From Candidatus Latescibacterota bacterium (GTDB lineage Bacteria > JAAXHH01 > JABIQT01), in NCBI GenBank assembly GCA_018667995.1, contig JABIQT010000801.1, positions 1 to 7,042 of the forward strand: a stretch of 7,042 nt of DNA. Reading direction: 5' to 3'. This document shows, piece by piece, positions 1,260-7,042 of this stretch. The notes beneath the pieces are model-generated. The model was not told the DNA's origin. It made no database searches and worked only from the letters and a program-made list of their open reading frames with translations. Both the position numbers and the translations under genes were made by a program. Position 1 is the stretch's first letter; the number at the start of each line of letters is the position of its first letter.

Positions 1260-1883
1260 GTGAATCAGATACTCATACTGTTTGCCCATCCTGCCATGCA
1301 GAAATCGCGGATCAACCGCATTCTCATTGCACCGATGCAGGAGCATACGGCGGTCACATTCCATGATCTCTATGCCGCCTACCCCGAGTTCGATATAGAT
1401 GTGCAGCACGAGCAGAGACTCTTAACCGAACACGACATTATTATCATGCACCATCCTATGTTCTGGTACAGCACACCTGCCATACTCAAGGAATGGCAGG
1501 ATCTGGTGCTCCAGCATGGGTGGGCATATGGCAGCTCGGCCTCGGCCCTCCGCGGTAAGAGATTTCTGAACGTCCTGACTACCGGTGGTGGTGAGCAAGC
1601 CTACAGCAAAGCCGGACTTGTCGGCAATACGGTACGTGAACTTCTGGTCCCTATTGAACGGACAGCCATCCTGTGCGGTATGCACTATCTGCCGCCATTC
1701 GTCGTCCATGGCACCCTTAACATGAGCGACGTTGATGCAACGCGGCACGCGGAGGACTATCAGCGCATGATTCTGGCGATGCGGGATGATGAGATAGAAT
1801 GGTCCAAGATTGCAGACTGTCACAGAATCAATGAAAATCTCGATGATGTGCTTACCAGGAATGGAGGTTCCCAGAATGCATGA
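1260..1883 (+). CDS. kefF: KefF-type flavoprotein NAD(P)H:quinone oxidoreductase, activator subunit of KefC
   Basis: The 207-residue product has a flavodoxin-like fold of the NQO1/KefF family. KefF binds FMN, reduces quinones and other electrophiles, and sits on the cytoplasmic KefC domain to allow full K+ efflux. Visible family features: ILILFAHP at 4-11, DLYAAYPEFDID at 36-47, HPMFWYSTP at 65-73, HGWAYG at 86-91, TTGGGE at 107-112 and GMHYLPPF at 140-147. All of these closely parallel E. coli KefF as I recall it. The start is GTG: an in-frame TAA ends 9 bases upstream at 1250, and AAGGA (1250-1254) lies 5 bases before the GTG. The C-terminus runs about 25-30 residues beyond the usual length of about 176. 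The gene overlaps kefC by 8 bases, indicating one transcript and probable translational coupling. Confidence 0.93.
   Translation: MNQILILFAHPAMQKSRINRILIAPMQEHTAVTFHDLYAAYPEFDIDVQHEQRLLTEHDIIIMHHPMFWYSTPAILKEWQDLVLQHGWAYGSSASALRGKRFLNVLTTGGGEQAYSKAGLVGNTVRELLVPIERTAILCGMHYLPPFVVHGTLNMSDVDATRHAEDYQRMILAMRDDEIEWSKIADCHRINENLDDVLTRNGGSQNA
1863..1867 (+). promoter_or_regulatory. Ribosome binding site that fixes the kefC start
   Basis: GGAGG lies inside the end of kefF, 8 bases before the ATG at 1876. It favours 1876 over in-frame ATGs at 1810 (deep in kefF) and 1861. The 1861 codon overlaps this site, and its own AGGA directly abuts it with no spacer. Confidence 0.7.
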
Positions 1884-3768
1884 CGGATTCTTCTACCAGG
1901 CCTTCATATATCTGAGCGCCGCCGTGATCGCCGTCCCCATCGCCAAGAGATTGGGGCTTGGATCGGTGCTGGGATACCTGATTGCTGGAATTGCCATAGG
2001 TCCCTATGGACTCGGATTCATTGGTGAGGAGGGAGAGGACGTCATGCACTTCGCCGAATTCGGCGTCGTAATGATGCTCTTTCTCATCGGGCTTGAGCTG
2101 CAACCCTCGCTGCTCTGGCGCATGCGAGGTCCCATCCTGGGCATGGGTGGACTCCAGGTAGCTGTCACGACCGGGATCATCATGGCCATCGCGATGATAG
2201 CAGGTCTGACCTGGAATATCTCATTGGCGATTGGTATGATTCTGGCGTTATCATCTACCGCGATAGTGCTTCAGACGCTCAATGAGAAAGGTCTGATGAA
2301 GACTGACACGGGAAATACCTCCTTCGCGGTGTTGCTCTTTCAGGATATCGCAGTTATCCCTATGCTGGCCGCGCTGCCGCTGTTGGCCCTGTCGGCTACA
2401 AATGCTGTGGTAACGTCGGGAGACGACCACAGTACCTGGATATCAGGTCTGGCCGTGTGGCAGCAGACGCTGGTGGTGTTCGGGGCTGTGGCAGGTATCG
2501 TGGTAGGTGGGCGATACATTACGAGACCGGTCTTCCGCTTCATAGCGTCTACCAGGCTGAGGGAGGTATTTACGGCCGCGTCGCTTCTGCTGATTATAGG
2601 TATAGCATTGCTGATGTCCAGTGTCGGTCTAAGCCCGGCGCTCGGGACGTTTCTGGCCGGAGTCGTGCTGGCGGGCAGTGAATACAGGCACGAATTAGAG
2701 AGTGATATCGAACCCTTCAAAGGTCTGCTGCTGGGTCTATTCTTCATTGCCGTAGGCGTTTCCATAGATTTCAATCTGGTCGGCGACCAACCAGGCATGA
2801 TCCTCTCCCTCGTTGCTCTACTTAATGTCGTGAAGCTGATCGTTCTACTAATACTCGGCAAGGTCTTCCGTATGGGATTTGATAGCAACCTGCTGACCGC
2901 ATTTGCTCTCGCCCAGGGCGGCGAGTTCGCCTTTGTCCTGTTCTCGTTCGCGATCCAGGAAGGCGTGATACCAGCGCAGACAGCCGCGCCACTCATTGCT
3001 GTGGTGGCCCTGTCCATGGCCGCAACGCCGCTGCTGATGATCATAGCGGAACGACTCATCCTTCCCCATATCGGCACGCCAGAGAGGGACGAGGAGCGCG
3101 AACCAGACGAGATCCATGGTGAGAATCCCGTCATAATAGCAGGTTATGGCAGGTTCGGGACCATTGTGGGCCGGTTGTTGACGGCCAATGGCATAGGGAC
3201 TACCGTGCTGGATCTCGACGCGGATAACGTGGATATGCTTCGCAAATTGGATATGAAAGTATTTTACGGCGACGCATCGCGCCACGACCTGCTGCATTCA
3301 GCGGGCGCTGATGAGGCGAAGCTGATAATCCTGGCCATCGATGACACCGAAAAGACGTTGGAGATCGTGCATACGGTGCGAAAGCACTTCGGACATCTCA
3401 AAATCATGACACGTGCGGGTAACCGACTTGAGTCCTATAAGCTGCTTGATGCCGAGGTACCGCATGTATATCGAGAGACTTTCGACACGTCCATTCGCTT
3501 GGCCACGGACGCCATGGAGCTTCTGGGCAGCCACCCGTACCAGGCCCATCGTGCGGCGATGATCTTTCGACGCCGCGATGAAGCCGACCTCCTGGAATTG
3601 GCATCGATGCGCCATGACCCGGGCGCCTACATCACCACGGCGCGGGAGCGAATTCAGGATATGGAGCGCACATTAACGAATGAAAGAGAGAATCCGGGGG
3701 AACAGCGTGATGTCGGTTGGGACAGCGAAAGCTTGCGGGCGGACTTTGGGGAGTCGGCAACGGACTAA
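1876..3768 (+). CDS. kefC: Glutathione-regulated potassium/proton antiporter KefC/KefB type
   Basis: The 630-residue inner-membrane protein is close in length to E. coli KefC (620). Residues 1-395 form the CPA2 Na+/H+-exchanger membrane domain. Motifs include LGLGSVLGYLIAG at 27-39, HFAEFGVVMMLFLIGLEL at 58-75, ALSSTAIVLQ at 124-133, and LLFQDIAVIP at 153-162 with the Gln156-Asp157 ion-site pair. The regulatory loop HELESDIEPFKG is at 272-283. After a charged linker (402-415) comes an RCK/KTN nucleotide-binding domain: GYGRFG at 423-428, Asp446 after the next strand, KVFYGDASR at 461-469. The tail from about 595 is poorly conserved. By family knowledge, glutathione keeps the channel closed and glutathione adducts open it, letting K+ out and acidifying the cytoplasm to protect against electrophiles such as methylglyoxal. 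It is coupled to kefF by an ATGCATGA overlap. KefB versus KefC cannot be told apart, but the adjacent kefF favours KefC. Confidence 0.94.
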   Translation: MHDGFFYQAFIYLSAAVIAVPIAKRLGLGSVLGYLIAGIAIGPYGLGFIGEEGEDVMHFAEFGVVMMLFLIGLELQPSLLWRMRGPILGMGGLQVAVTTGIIMAIAMIAGLTWNISLAIGMILALSSTAIVLQTLNEKGLMKTDTGNTSFAVLLFQDIAVIPMLAALPLLALSATNAVVTSGDDHSTWISGLAVWQQTLVVFGAVAGIVVGGRYITRPVFRFIASTRLREVFTAASLLLIIGIALLMSSVGLSPALGTFLAGVVLAGSEYRHELESDIEPFKGLLLGLFFIAVGVSIDFNLVGDQPGMILSLVALLNVVKLIVLLILGKVFRMGFDSNLLTAFALAQGGEFAFVLFSFAIQEGVIPAQTAAPLIAVVALSMAATPLLMIIAERLILPHIGTPERDEEREPDEIHGENPVIIAGYGRFGTIVGRLLTANGIGTTVLDLDADNVDMLRKLDMKVFYGDASRHDLLHSAGADEAKLIILAIDDTEKTLEIVHTVRKHFGHLKIMTRAGNRLESYKLLDAEVPHVYRETFDTSIRLATDAMELLGSHPYQAHRAAMIFRRRDEADLLELASMRHDPGAYITTARERIQDMERTLTNERENPGEQRDVGWDSESLRADFGESATD

Positions 3769-5311: not shown

Positions 5312-6247
5312 ATGGAAGGCAAGCTGAAACACCTGATCGACTGGAAGTTCTGGAGCAACGAGGATACGGTTCGAATGCTTAATCTCGCTCAGCGGGTGAA
5401 ACACTATCGCTGGGAGTATCAGGGGCATATGCAGGGCAACACGCTCGTGATGATGTTTCAGAAAACTTCTACGCGAACCAGGGTTTCATTCGAAGCCGGC
5501 ATGACGGAATTGGGCGGCCACGCCATAAATCTTGACTGGCGGTCTACGAATTTCACCCTGAGCAAAATCGCCTTTGAGACCCGTTATCTATGCCGCAATG
5601 CAGCACTGATCATGGCCCGCCTGAAGGAAAACTCCGAACTAATGGAAATGGAACAGGCGGCAACGGTGCCGATCATCAACGGTTGCTGCAACCTGTACCA
5701 TCCCTGCCAGTCCCTGGCAGATATGCTAACCATAGCCGAAGACCGACCAGAGGGTGTGGCCGGGGCAAAACTCACGTACATCGGTGTCTACAACAACGTC
5801 GTCAATTCACTGGTATCTATCGCCGCACCGTTAAACGTAGAACTCACCCTGGTATGTCCTATACGGGAGCCGGGGAGTGTCGATGAAGAAAGTCGTAAGC
5901 GCCTCATGGACAAAGGGTTGCTTACAGAGACACTGGATGCACGCGCCGCGGTTGCCGAAGCAGACTACGTCTACACAGACACGTGGCTCGACATGGAATT
6001 TTTCAACGACCCCGACTATGAAGAAGAAAAAGAAGCGCGTTGTAAAACCATGCTTCCTTACCAGATAAATAAAGAACTACTGGCGGAAAGCAACGCCAAA
6101 GTAATGCACGACATGCCTATCCACCACGGGTATGAGATTGCGGAAGATATGGTCGAAGACCCGAGATCAATTATCTATGATCAGGCCGAAAACAGACTCG
6201 ACGCGCAAAAGGCCATCATGCTTCATCTACTCCACGAGTTGAAATAG
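5312..6247 (+). CDS. Ornithine carbamoyltransferase-like enzyme with altered acceptor-site motifs
   Basis: The 311-residue cytoplasmic enzyme has the length and layout of the aspartate/ornithine carbamoyltransferase family. The carbamoyl-phosphate site is intact: KTSTRTR at 51-57, Arg103 in MARL, HPCQ at 130-133. NNVVNSL (161-167) matches the NN motif that contacts ornithine, but the preceding GD is GV (158-159). In known ornithine enzymes the amino acid is also held by a D-x-W-x-SMG loop and by the Cys of HCLP. Here these read DTWLDME (223-229) and HDMP (266-269), so Ser, Gly and Cys become Asp227, Glu229 and Asp267. The C-terminal ENRLDAQKA (293-301) is canonical. The start ATG has GAGG at 5300-5303, 8 bases upstream. 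It may be an arginine-pathway argF, but no other arg gene is nearby. The changed motifs make another amine acceptor plausible, so I withhold a gene symbol. Confidence 0.88.
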   Translation: MEGKLKHLIDWKFWSNEDTVRMLNLAQRVKHYRWEYQGHMQGNTLVMMFQKTSTRTRVSFEAGMTELGGHAINLDWRSTNFTLSKIAFETRYLCRNAALIMARLKENSELMEMEQAATVPIINGCCNLYHPCQSLADMLTIAEDRPEGVAGAKLTYIGVYNNVVNSLVSIAAPLNVELTLVCPIREPGSVDEESRKRLMDKGLLTETLDARAAVAEADYVYTDTWLDMEFFNDPDYEEEKEARCKTMLPYQINKELLAESNAKVMHDMPIHHGYEIAEDMVEDPRSIIYDQAENRLDAQKAIMLHLLHELK

Positions 6248-6255
6248 AGGAAGCC

Positions 6256-7042
6256 CTATTGGTTTTCTGCCACCTCGTCCTGCCAGTCAAGTGATTTAAA
6301 CCAATAACTGCGGCGCTCTTCGAGCCACCCATCCTCGGTTCGCAGATAGATCCAGTTGTCTATGAAATTCAACAGGTCATATTCTCCATGCCGAACTGCA
6401 ATCGCCTCTGAACCTCTCGACAGTTCCTTCTCAAAGGGCATATAAAGCCGATCGGCGTTCTTCAAGGTCTCGTACTCCGGTTTCGGTGTGGCAGCGATAA
6501 CACCGTGGGCGTTGCCGTTCAAGACCTCCTGGAATGCCTGGGCATCGTCATCAAACTGTCGCAATTCGGCATTGGGGAAGTTTTCCTTTCCAACTGGAAC
6601 GGCAGTGGATCCACGTCTTACCGTGATCGTAATACCTTCCTGGTTGAAATCCTCGATTTGATTCTTATCACTCATTTTCTGTTTGCTCGCAGCCATGGTA
6701 ACACCGGCATGCGCATAGGGGCGCGTGAAATTAACAGAGAGGTTCCGTTGCGGCGTTATGGTGAGGCCGCCTATGATGACATCAAATTTCCCCGCCAGGA
6801 TTCCCGGGATGACGCCGTCCCACGCCGTAGGAACAAAGGCCACTTCCAGTCCGGCGTCCTCGGCTAATTGACGGGCCACATCCACCTCAAAACCGATCAA
6901 CTCCCCCTGCTTGTTGCGCATGGCCCACGGTACAAAGGTGGATAAACCTACGCGTATACTCCCGCGCTGTTTAATCTGGTCGAGCAGGGATATGCGTGCA
7001 GACTCAGAGGACGATCCGCATCCGGATGTCAGTAGCAGAATC
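6256..7042 (-). CDS. Family 3 amino-acid-binding lipoprotein of an ABC transporter, N-terminus cut off
   Basis: The frame is open to the right edge, so the first residues are missing. The ATG at 6921 is internal, because the frame continues upstream with a signal-peptide end, ILLLTSGC, a plausible lipobox with the lipidated Cys about 8 residues in. In the 261 visible residues the bilobed fold is clear: IRVGLSTFVPWAM at 29-41, LIGFEVDVA at 48-56, WDGVIPGILAGKFDVIIGG at 74-92, ITPQRN at 95-100 with Arg99 likely gripping the ligand carboxylate, and the C-terminal DGWLEERRSYWF at 237-248. It should be membrane-anchored, deliver a polar amino acid or similar ligand to an ABC permease, and be encoded with permease genes that lie outside the window. 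The second-lobe stretch GVIAATPKPEY (180-190) has Ala184 where this family often has a ligand-binding Asp. It is convergent with the carbamoyltransferase, 8 bases away. Confidence 0.9.
   Translation of the reverse strand, partial: ILLLTSGCGSSSESARISLLDQIKQRGSIRVGLSTFVPWAMRNKQGELIGFEVDVARQLAEDAGLEVAFVPTAWDGVIPGILAGKFDVIIGGLTITPQRNLSVNFTRPYAHAGVTMAASKQKMSDKNQIEDFNQEGITITVRRGSTAVPVGKENFPNAELRQFDDDAQAFQEVLNGNAHGVIAATPKPEYETLKNADRLYMPFEKELSRGSEAIAVRHGEYDLLNFIDNWIYLRTEDGWLEERRSYWFKSLDWQDEVAENQ

Follow-up and report, generated by a model that had tools for sequence, protein, structure and literature searches.

The window analyzed here is a stretch of 7,042 nucleotides from a Candidatus Latescibacterota bacterium, and it carries one complete open reading frame for a carbamoyltransferase (Table 1). 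Profile matches within the window show that the neighbors of this gene are unrelated to it and offer no operon clue to its function: a KefF/KefC-like potassium efflux pair, a DJ-1/PfpI protein, a glycosyltransferase and a convergent amino-acid-binding lipoprotein. The two efflux genes overlap, and their products score slightly under the cut-offs curated for their E. coli counterparts. The lipoprotein gene ends 9 bases past the carbamoyltransferase gene.

Table 1. Features of the window and of the carbamoyltransferase gene, in window coordinates
Feature	Position	Strand	Remarks
KefF/KefG-like oxidoreductase overlapping KefB/KefC-like potassium/proton antiporter	1260..3768	+	
Carbamoyltransferase gene	5312..6247	+	311 aa; PF02729 and PF00185; NCBIfam NF011379 (PRK14804-type ornithine carbamoyltransferase)
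Lys51-Thr-Ser53-Thr-Arg-Thr-Arg57	5462..5482	+	FxKxSxRT, carbamoyl-phosphate site; K51, S53, T54, R55 and T56 invariant (n=31)
80s loop, Trp76...Asn80-Phe81	5537..5554	+	W76 invariant, N80/F81 at least 90% in 31 clade members
Arg103	5618..5620	+	Carbamoyl-phosphate-binding Arg; invariant in 31 clade members
HPCQ (130-133)	5699..5710	+	Carbamoyl-binding motif; alignment, motif table, clade conservation
Asn161-Asn162	5792..5797	+	Invariant; Asn162 is the OTC Asn for the ornithine alpha-amino and carboxylate groups (role: PMC10765591)
DTWLDME (223-229) for DxxxSMG	5978..5998	+	Asp223 and Met228 kept; Ser to Asp227, Gly to Glu229
Asp223 codon	5978..5980	+	Codon check
Asp227 codon	5990..5992	+	Codon check
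Met228 codon	5993..5995	+	Codon check
Glu229 codon	5996..5998	+	Codon check
FFNDPD (230-235), insertion after the loop	5999..6016	+	Alignment to P. furiosus OTC
HDMP (266-269) for HCLP	6107..6118	+	Alignment, motif table, clade conservation, codon check
Asp267 codon	6110..6112	+	Codon check
AENR (292-295)	6185..6196	+	C-terminal Arg contacting carbamoyl phosphate; E293, N294 and R295 invariant
Polar-amino-acid-type solute-binding lipoprotein, convergent	6256..7041	-	

Alignment to the ornithine carbamoyltransferase (OTC) of Pyrococcus furiosus (1a1s) leaves the carbamoyl-phosphate motifs STRTR, Arg103, HPCQ and AENR unchanged, as the original prediction had held. The same alignment and the codon check bear out the two acceptor-site changes that it placed at 5975-6144: TDTWLDME replaces TDVWASMG, and MHDMPIHHGYE replaces MHCLPAHRGEE. 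The extra residues reported after the first loop are also present, although there are six of them (Phe230-Asp235) and not about five. In the 80s loop, Asn80 takes the position of Gln82 of E. coli OTC, an equivalence assigned by counting from SxRT and not from a structure. This count led to the rejection of Trp76 as a counterpart of the 80s-loop Trp of the acetylornithine enzymes.

The DxxxSMG and HCLP motifs serve to recognize OTCs. Under the motif rules of a transcarbamylase review, the window protein would not pass as an OTC, nor does it qualify as a putrescine, diaminopropionate, diaminobutyrate, acyl-ornithine or aspartate enzyme (PMC4581275). It scores under the cut-offs of the general OTC models (TIGR00658, 246.1 versus 280.85 bits; NF001986, 274 versus 306) and of the aspartate carbamoyltransferase model (NF002032, 116.1 bits, cut-off 263), and the RxQxER motif of the latter enzyme is absent. 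It does match, over the full length, the equivalog model NF011379 (PRK14804.1, 'ornithine carbamoyltransferase') with 442.9 bits against a cut-off of 373, and thus represents the same protein type, the function name of which comes from annotation. The DME/HDMP type is therefore already modeled in NCBIfam, and because this model accepts the window protein while the motif rules for the other classes reject it, the protein is filed as PRK14804-type. It is therefore predicted to work like an OTC, but should not be called a canonical ArgF. The farther members of the group fall under the NF011379 cut-off (Priestia, 319 bits; Oscillospiraceae, 275 bits).

Scanning GTDB-representative contigs yielded 54 relatives. 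The DME loop with its insertion, nearly always together with HDMP, occurs in Latescibacterota, Gemmatimonadota bins, Gammaproteobacteria (Thioalkalivibrio sp. HK1 among them), Acidobacteriota bins, Lachnospiraceae, one Oscillospiraceae bin and one Woesearchaeota bin, so that the hosts include Firmicutes and one archaeal bin. In 31 clade members, namely the window protein and 30 relatives with 41-81% identity to it, Met228, Glu229, Phe231, His266 and Pro269 are invariant, and Asp227, Asp267 and Met268 are at least 90% conserved. Such conservation means that the motif changes are not due to chance. The two motifs can change separately, since two Gemmatimonadetes bins (L058, L059) combine DMEFFND with HCLP, and a canonical SMG-type OTC (L023, genome G027) has HDLP for HCLP. 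The latter protein, which has the Asp without the DME loop, also indicates that Asp is tolerated at the Cys site of HCLP.

All 25 DME sequences lie on one side of a single branch (support 100/99) within the OTC side of a maximum-likelihood tree that also took in canonical OTCs, E. coli ArgI, PyrB, YgeW, putrescine enzymes and others. The support stays at 100/99 when the three stretches that carry the motifs are removed along with the longest branches, which rules out that the grouping is an artefact of the motif columns. From the order of the surrounding OTC subgroups in the tree, no sister group could be named. The expectation that homologs with HDMPIHxGYE would form an uncharacterized clade of their own is thus borne out by the motif table and by both trees. 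We know of no assayed enzyme of this clade, and no paper on the DME/HDMP type was found in the literature searched, most subscription journals being outside the reach of that search. The genes surrounding the clade members are lineage-specific housekeeping genes, and no conserved neighborhood common to the clade was found.

The genomic context places the gene in arginine biosynthesis. The window genome is 85% complete and contains two carbamoyltransferases, the DME gene and a separate PyrB (contig C488), and no others. One of its contigs (C157) carries argR-argC-argB-argD-argH followed by a NAGS-like GNAT acetyltransferase gene, and another (C160) carries argG; argJ was not detected in this assembly. 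The other carrier genomes examined have argH and argG, with the archaeal bin (L087/G053) lacking a convincing argH. The carriers also have argB, and most have argC. ArgJ is found in 14 of the 18 genomes examined and is absent from G000, G001, G048 and G053. In the Oscillospiraceae bin (L060:1819-6941), one strand carries, in this order, argG, two small genes, argH and the DME gene. Close to the DME gene in three Lachnospiraceae bins are carB and a gene resembling arginyl-tRNA synthetase (identified by eye).

A second argB/argC set of the Latescibacterota was considered as a second arginine route and dropped, as it adjoins lysX and belongs to a LysW-type lysine pathway. In L205:3063-7019 (G002:C2), lysX is accompanied by argC- and argB-like genes, and in this phylum the LysW-type pathway stands beside the acetylated arginine pathway. 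A locus of another kind, L219:1002-6308 (G033), is a cluster of three carbamoyltransferases (two knotted YgeW-like proteins and one canonical OTC) with a carbamate-kinase-like gene and a pyridoxal-enzyme-like gene.

The DME form and canonical OTC tend to exclude one another. Of the 16 genomes of the phylum to which the window belongs, 13 carry the DME form, two carry a canonical SMG/HCLP OTC in its stead, one has neither and none has both. In 70 Lachnospiraceae genomes the DME form (62-100% identity to the query) occurs five times and canonical OTC 58 times, again never together, the classes here being set by identity (at least 32% as OTC, lower as PyrB) and not by a one-by-one motif check. 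The Fisher p value for this exclusion is 6.5e-5, with shared ancestry ignored. The class of G043 (56 genomes) gives one DME form, 41 canonical OTCs and no genome with both. Both forms are carried by four of 22 chosen genomes (G040, G041, G044 and G048). Among the canonical copies in these four, L092 belongs to the E. coli ArgI type, and one of the four genomes may be a case of mis-binning. The Oscillospiraceae bin of L060 has, besides its DME gene, a canonical SMG OTC adjoining argB on another contig (L088/L220), which may reflect either a real duplication or mis-binning.

The AlphaFold2 model of the window protein (pLDDT 94.2, pTM 0.93) has as its best structural matches unknotted OTCs with ornithine analogs bound, at Z about 39 (2i6u, Z 39.2; 8qeu with ornithine, Z 39.1). 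With canonical anabolic OTCs (ArgF; 2i6u, 8qeu and 1a1s, Z 38-39) it shares the fold, the carbamoyl-phosphate site (FxKxSxRT, HPxQ), Lys51, Asn162, Asp223, Met228 and the position in the pathway. It differs from them in the SMG to DME and HCLP to HDMP replacements, Asn80 for Gln82 and the six-residue insertion, at about 30-36% identity. In the complex of AtOTC with ornithine, Asn232, Asp293 and Ser297 contact the alpha-amine, Asn232 and the backbone of Met298 contact the carboxylate, and Lys121 acts via a water molecule (PMC10765591). These residues correspond here to Asn162, Asp223, Asp227, Met228 and Lys51. Lys51, Asn162, Asp223 and Met228 are invariant in the 31 clade members, and only the Ser is changed among the AtOTC contacts. 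The Lys51 position holds the OTC-type residue, the ornithine contact of which is water-mediated in OTCs (PMC4581275, PMC10765591). In E. coli OTC, a salt bridge between the Cys273 thiolate and the delta-amine has been reported, yet the C273A mutant is active (PMC7004355).

By combining these data, it is possible to propose how the enzyme might work. Carbamoyl phosphate would bind first, to Ser53-Arg57, Arg103, His130, Gln133, Arg295 and Asn80 of the neighboring subunit. Ornithine would then enter, with its carboxylate on Asn162 and the backbone of Met228 and its alpha-ammonium group on Asp223, Asn162 and Asp227, the last replacing the Ser of canonical enzymes. The delta-amine would be oriented for attack by main-chain oxygens of the HDMP loop, and the carboxylate of Asp267 would stand in for the Cys thiolate that is reported to pair with the delta-ammonium group. 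Glu229 and the FFNDPD insertion would remodel the closing loop. As judged from the sequence, Asp227 and Asp267 could hold the two ammonium groups of ornithine more strongly than the residues that they replace. No new substrate needs to be invoked, because both new aspartates would be placed at the positive charges of ornithine.

It is thus highly probable (roughly 0.88) that the gene encodes the anabolic OTC of the host's arginine pathway, a predicted activity of a separate clade whose acceptor site has been remodeled. The original prediction had leaned towards a different acceptor, such as a diamine, and had named a divergent ornithine enzyme as the alternative, which now appears to be the best reading. 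A carbamoyltransferase for another amine (putrescine, agmatine, lysine, diaminobutyrate or diaminopropionate) would explain the two or three additional acidic residues at the acceptor site, and HDLP does mark the diaminopropionate and diaminobutyrate enzymes (PMC4581275), whose Asp is shared as Asp267, with Met here for the Leu. However, those enzymes, which occur in a natural-product context, have Thr or Ser in place of the first-loop Asp, and this Asp (Asp223) is invariant here. Putrescine carbamoyltransferase (4a8h) has the same fold (Z 37, about 28% identity) but has a (Y/W)(G/W)(V/L/I) loop of the YGL type instead of WLDME, Gln (FxQxSxRT) instead of Lys51, and a C-terminal extension whose additional helix the window protein lacks; the score against TIGR04384 is 195.9 bits with a cut-off of 500. 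Moreover, with such a substrate the carriers would have no OTC for their arginine pathway. The original prediction had itself held that a gene standing alone in a complete arginine pathway would speak against a new substrate, and this is largely what is found: close relatives have argB, argC, argG, argH and argJ, the DME gene is their only non-PyrB carbamoyltransferase, and the DME form excludes canonical OTC in three taxonomic samples. The different-substrate reading was dropped on this evidence from pathway and exclusivity and is very improbable.

Carbamoylation of an N-acylated ornithine is equally improbable. The acetyl- and succinylornithine enzymes likewise replace OTC in arginine synthesis, and the missing argJ of the window assembly would fit such a route. 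ArgJ frees ornithine ahead of carbamoylation, and its presence in most of the genomes examined therefore disfavors an enzyme for the acylated substrate. In addition, on the sequence level, the alpha-amino contact Asp223 is invariant and acyl-ornithine enzymes start that loop with Lys, and the match to the model of the knotted acetyl-/succinylornithine enzymes stays at 136.8 bits (NF003384, cut-off 288). A catabolic OTC running in the direction of the arginine deiminase pathway would share fold and substrate with the biosynthetic enzyme, but neither carbamate kinase nor arginine deiminase lies beside the gene in the loci read, and the exclusion of biosynthetic OTC would be left without an explanation; this role is the least probable of the three alternatives.

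The closest plasmid-borne relative comes from Priestia megaterium (43% identity, with VDMEHFN and HDMPIHPGYE). Its plasmid island, L158:3714-16909 (NZ_CP085446.1 81174-95160), is flanked by IS6 transposases. The cluster encodes a PEP mutase, a split phosphonopyruvate/sulfopyruvate-decarboxylase-like pair, two amino-acid-ligase-type ATP-grasp enzymes, an M20 peptidase, an alkanesulfonate-monooxygenase-like enzyme and transporters, a set of genes that has the appearance of a phosphonate peptide pathway. By analogy with ArgK, which provides self-protection from phaseolotoxin (PMC10765591), this single cluster suggests that its OTC might protect the producer from an OTC inhibitor. A literature search on self-resistance involving phosphonates and OTC returned nothing specific. 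The wider speculation, that enzymes of the DME/HDMP lineage are not affected by bisubstrate-type inhibitors of OTC such as N-(phosphonacetyl)-L-ornithine, that the Priestia copy is the self-protection of a producer that makes a natural phosphonate directed at OTC and that the clade spread partly as an escape from such compounds, is unlikely.

The clade occupies the arginine-pathway slot in at least five bacterial phyla and has neither DxxxSMG nor HCLP, and the acceptor site would thus be more changeable than the motif rules allow. Because some members score under the cut-offs of general OTC models, predicted pathways may show gaps in arginine biosynthesis that are not real. Conversely, a motif alone can point to new substrates where none exists. 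With Asp in the position of the active-site Cys, the clade may be regarded as a natural experiment on what this Cys does, which is disputed.
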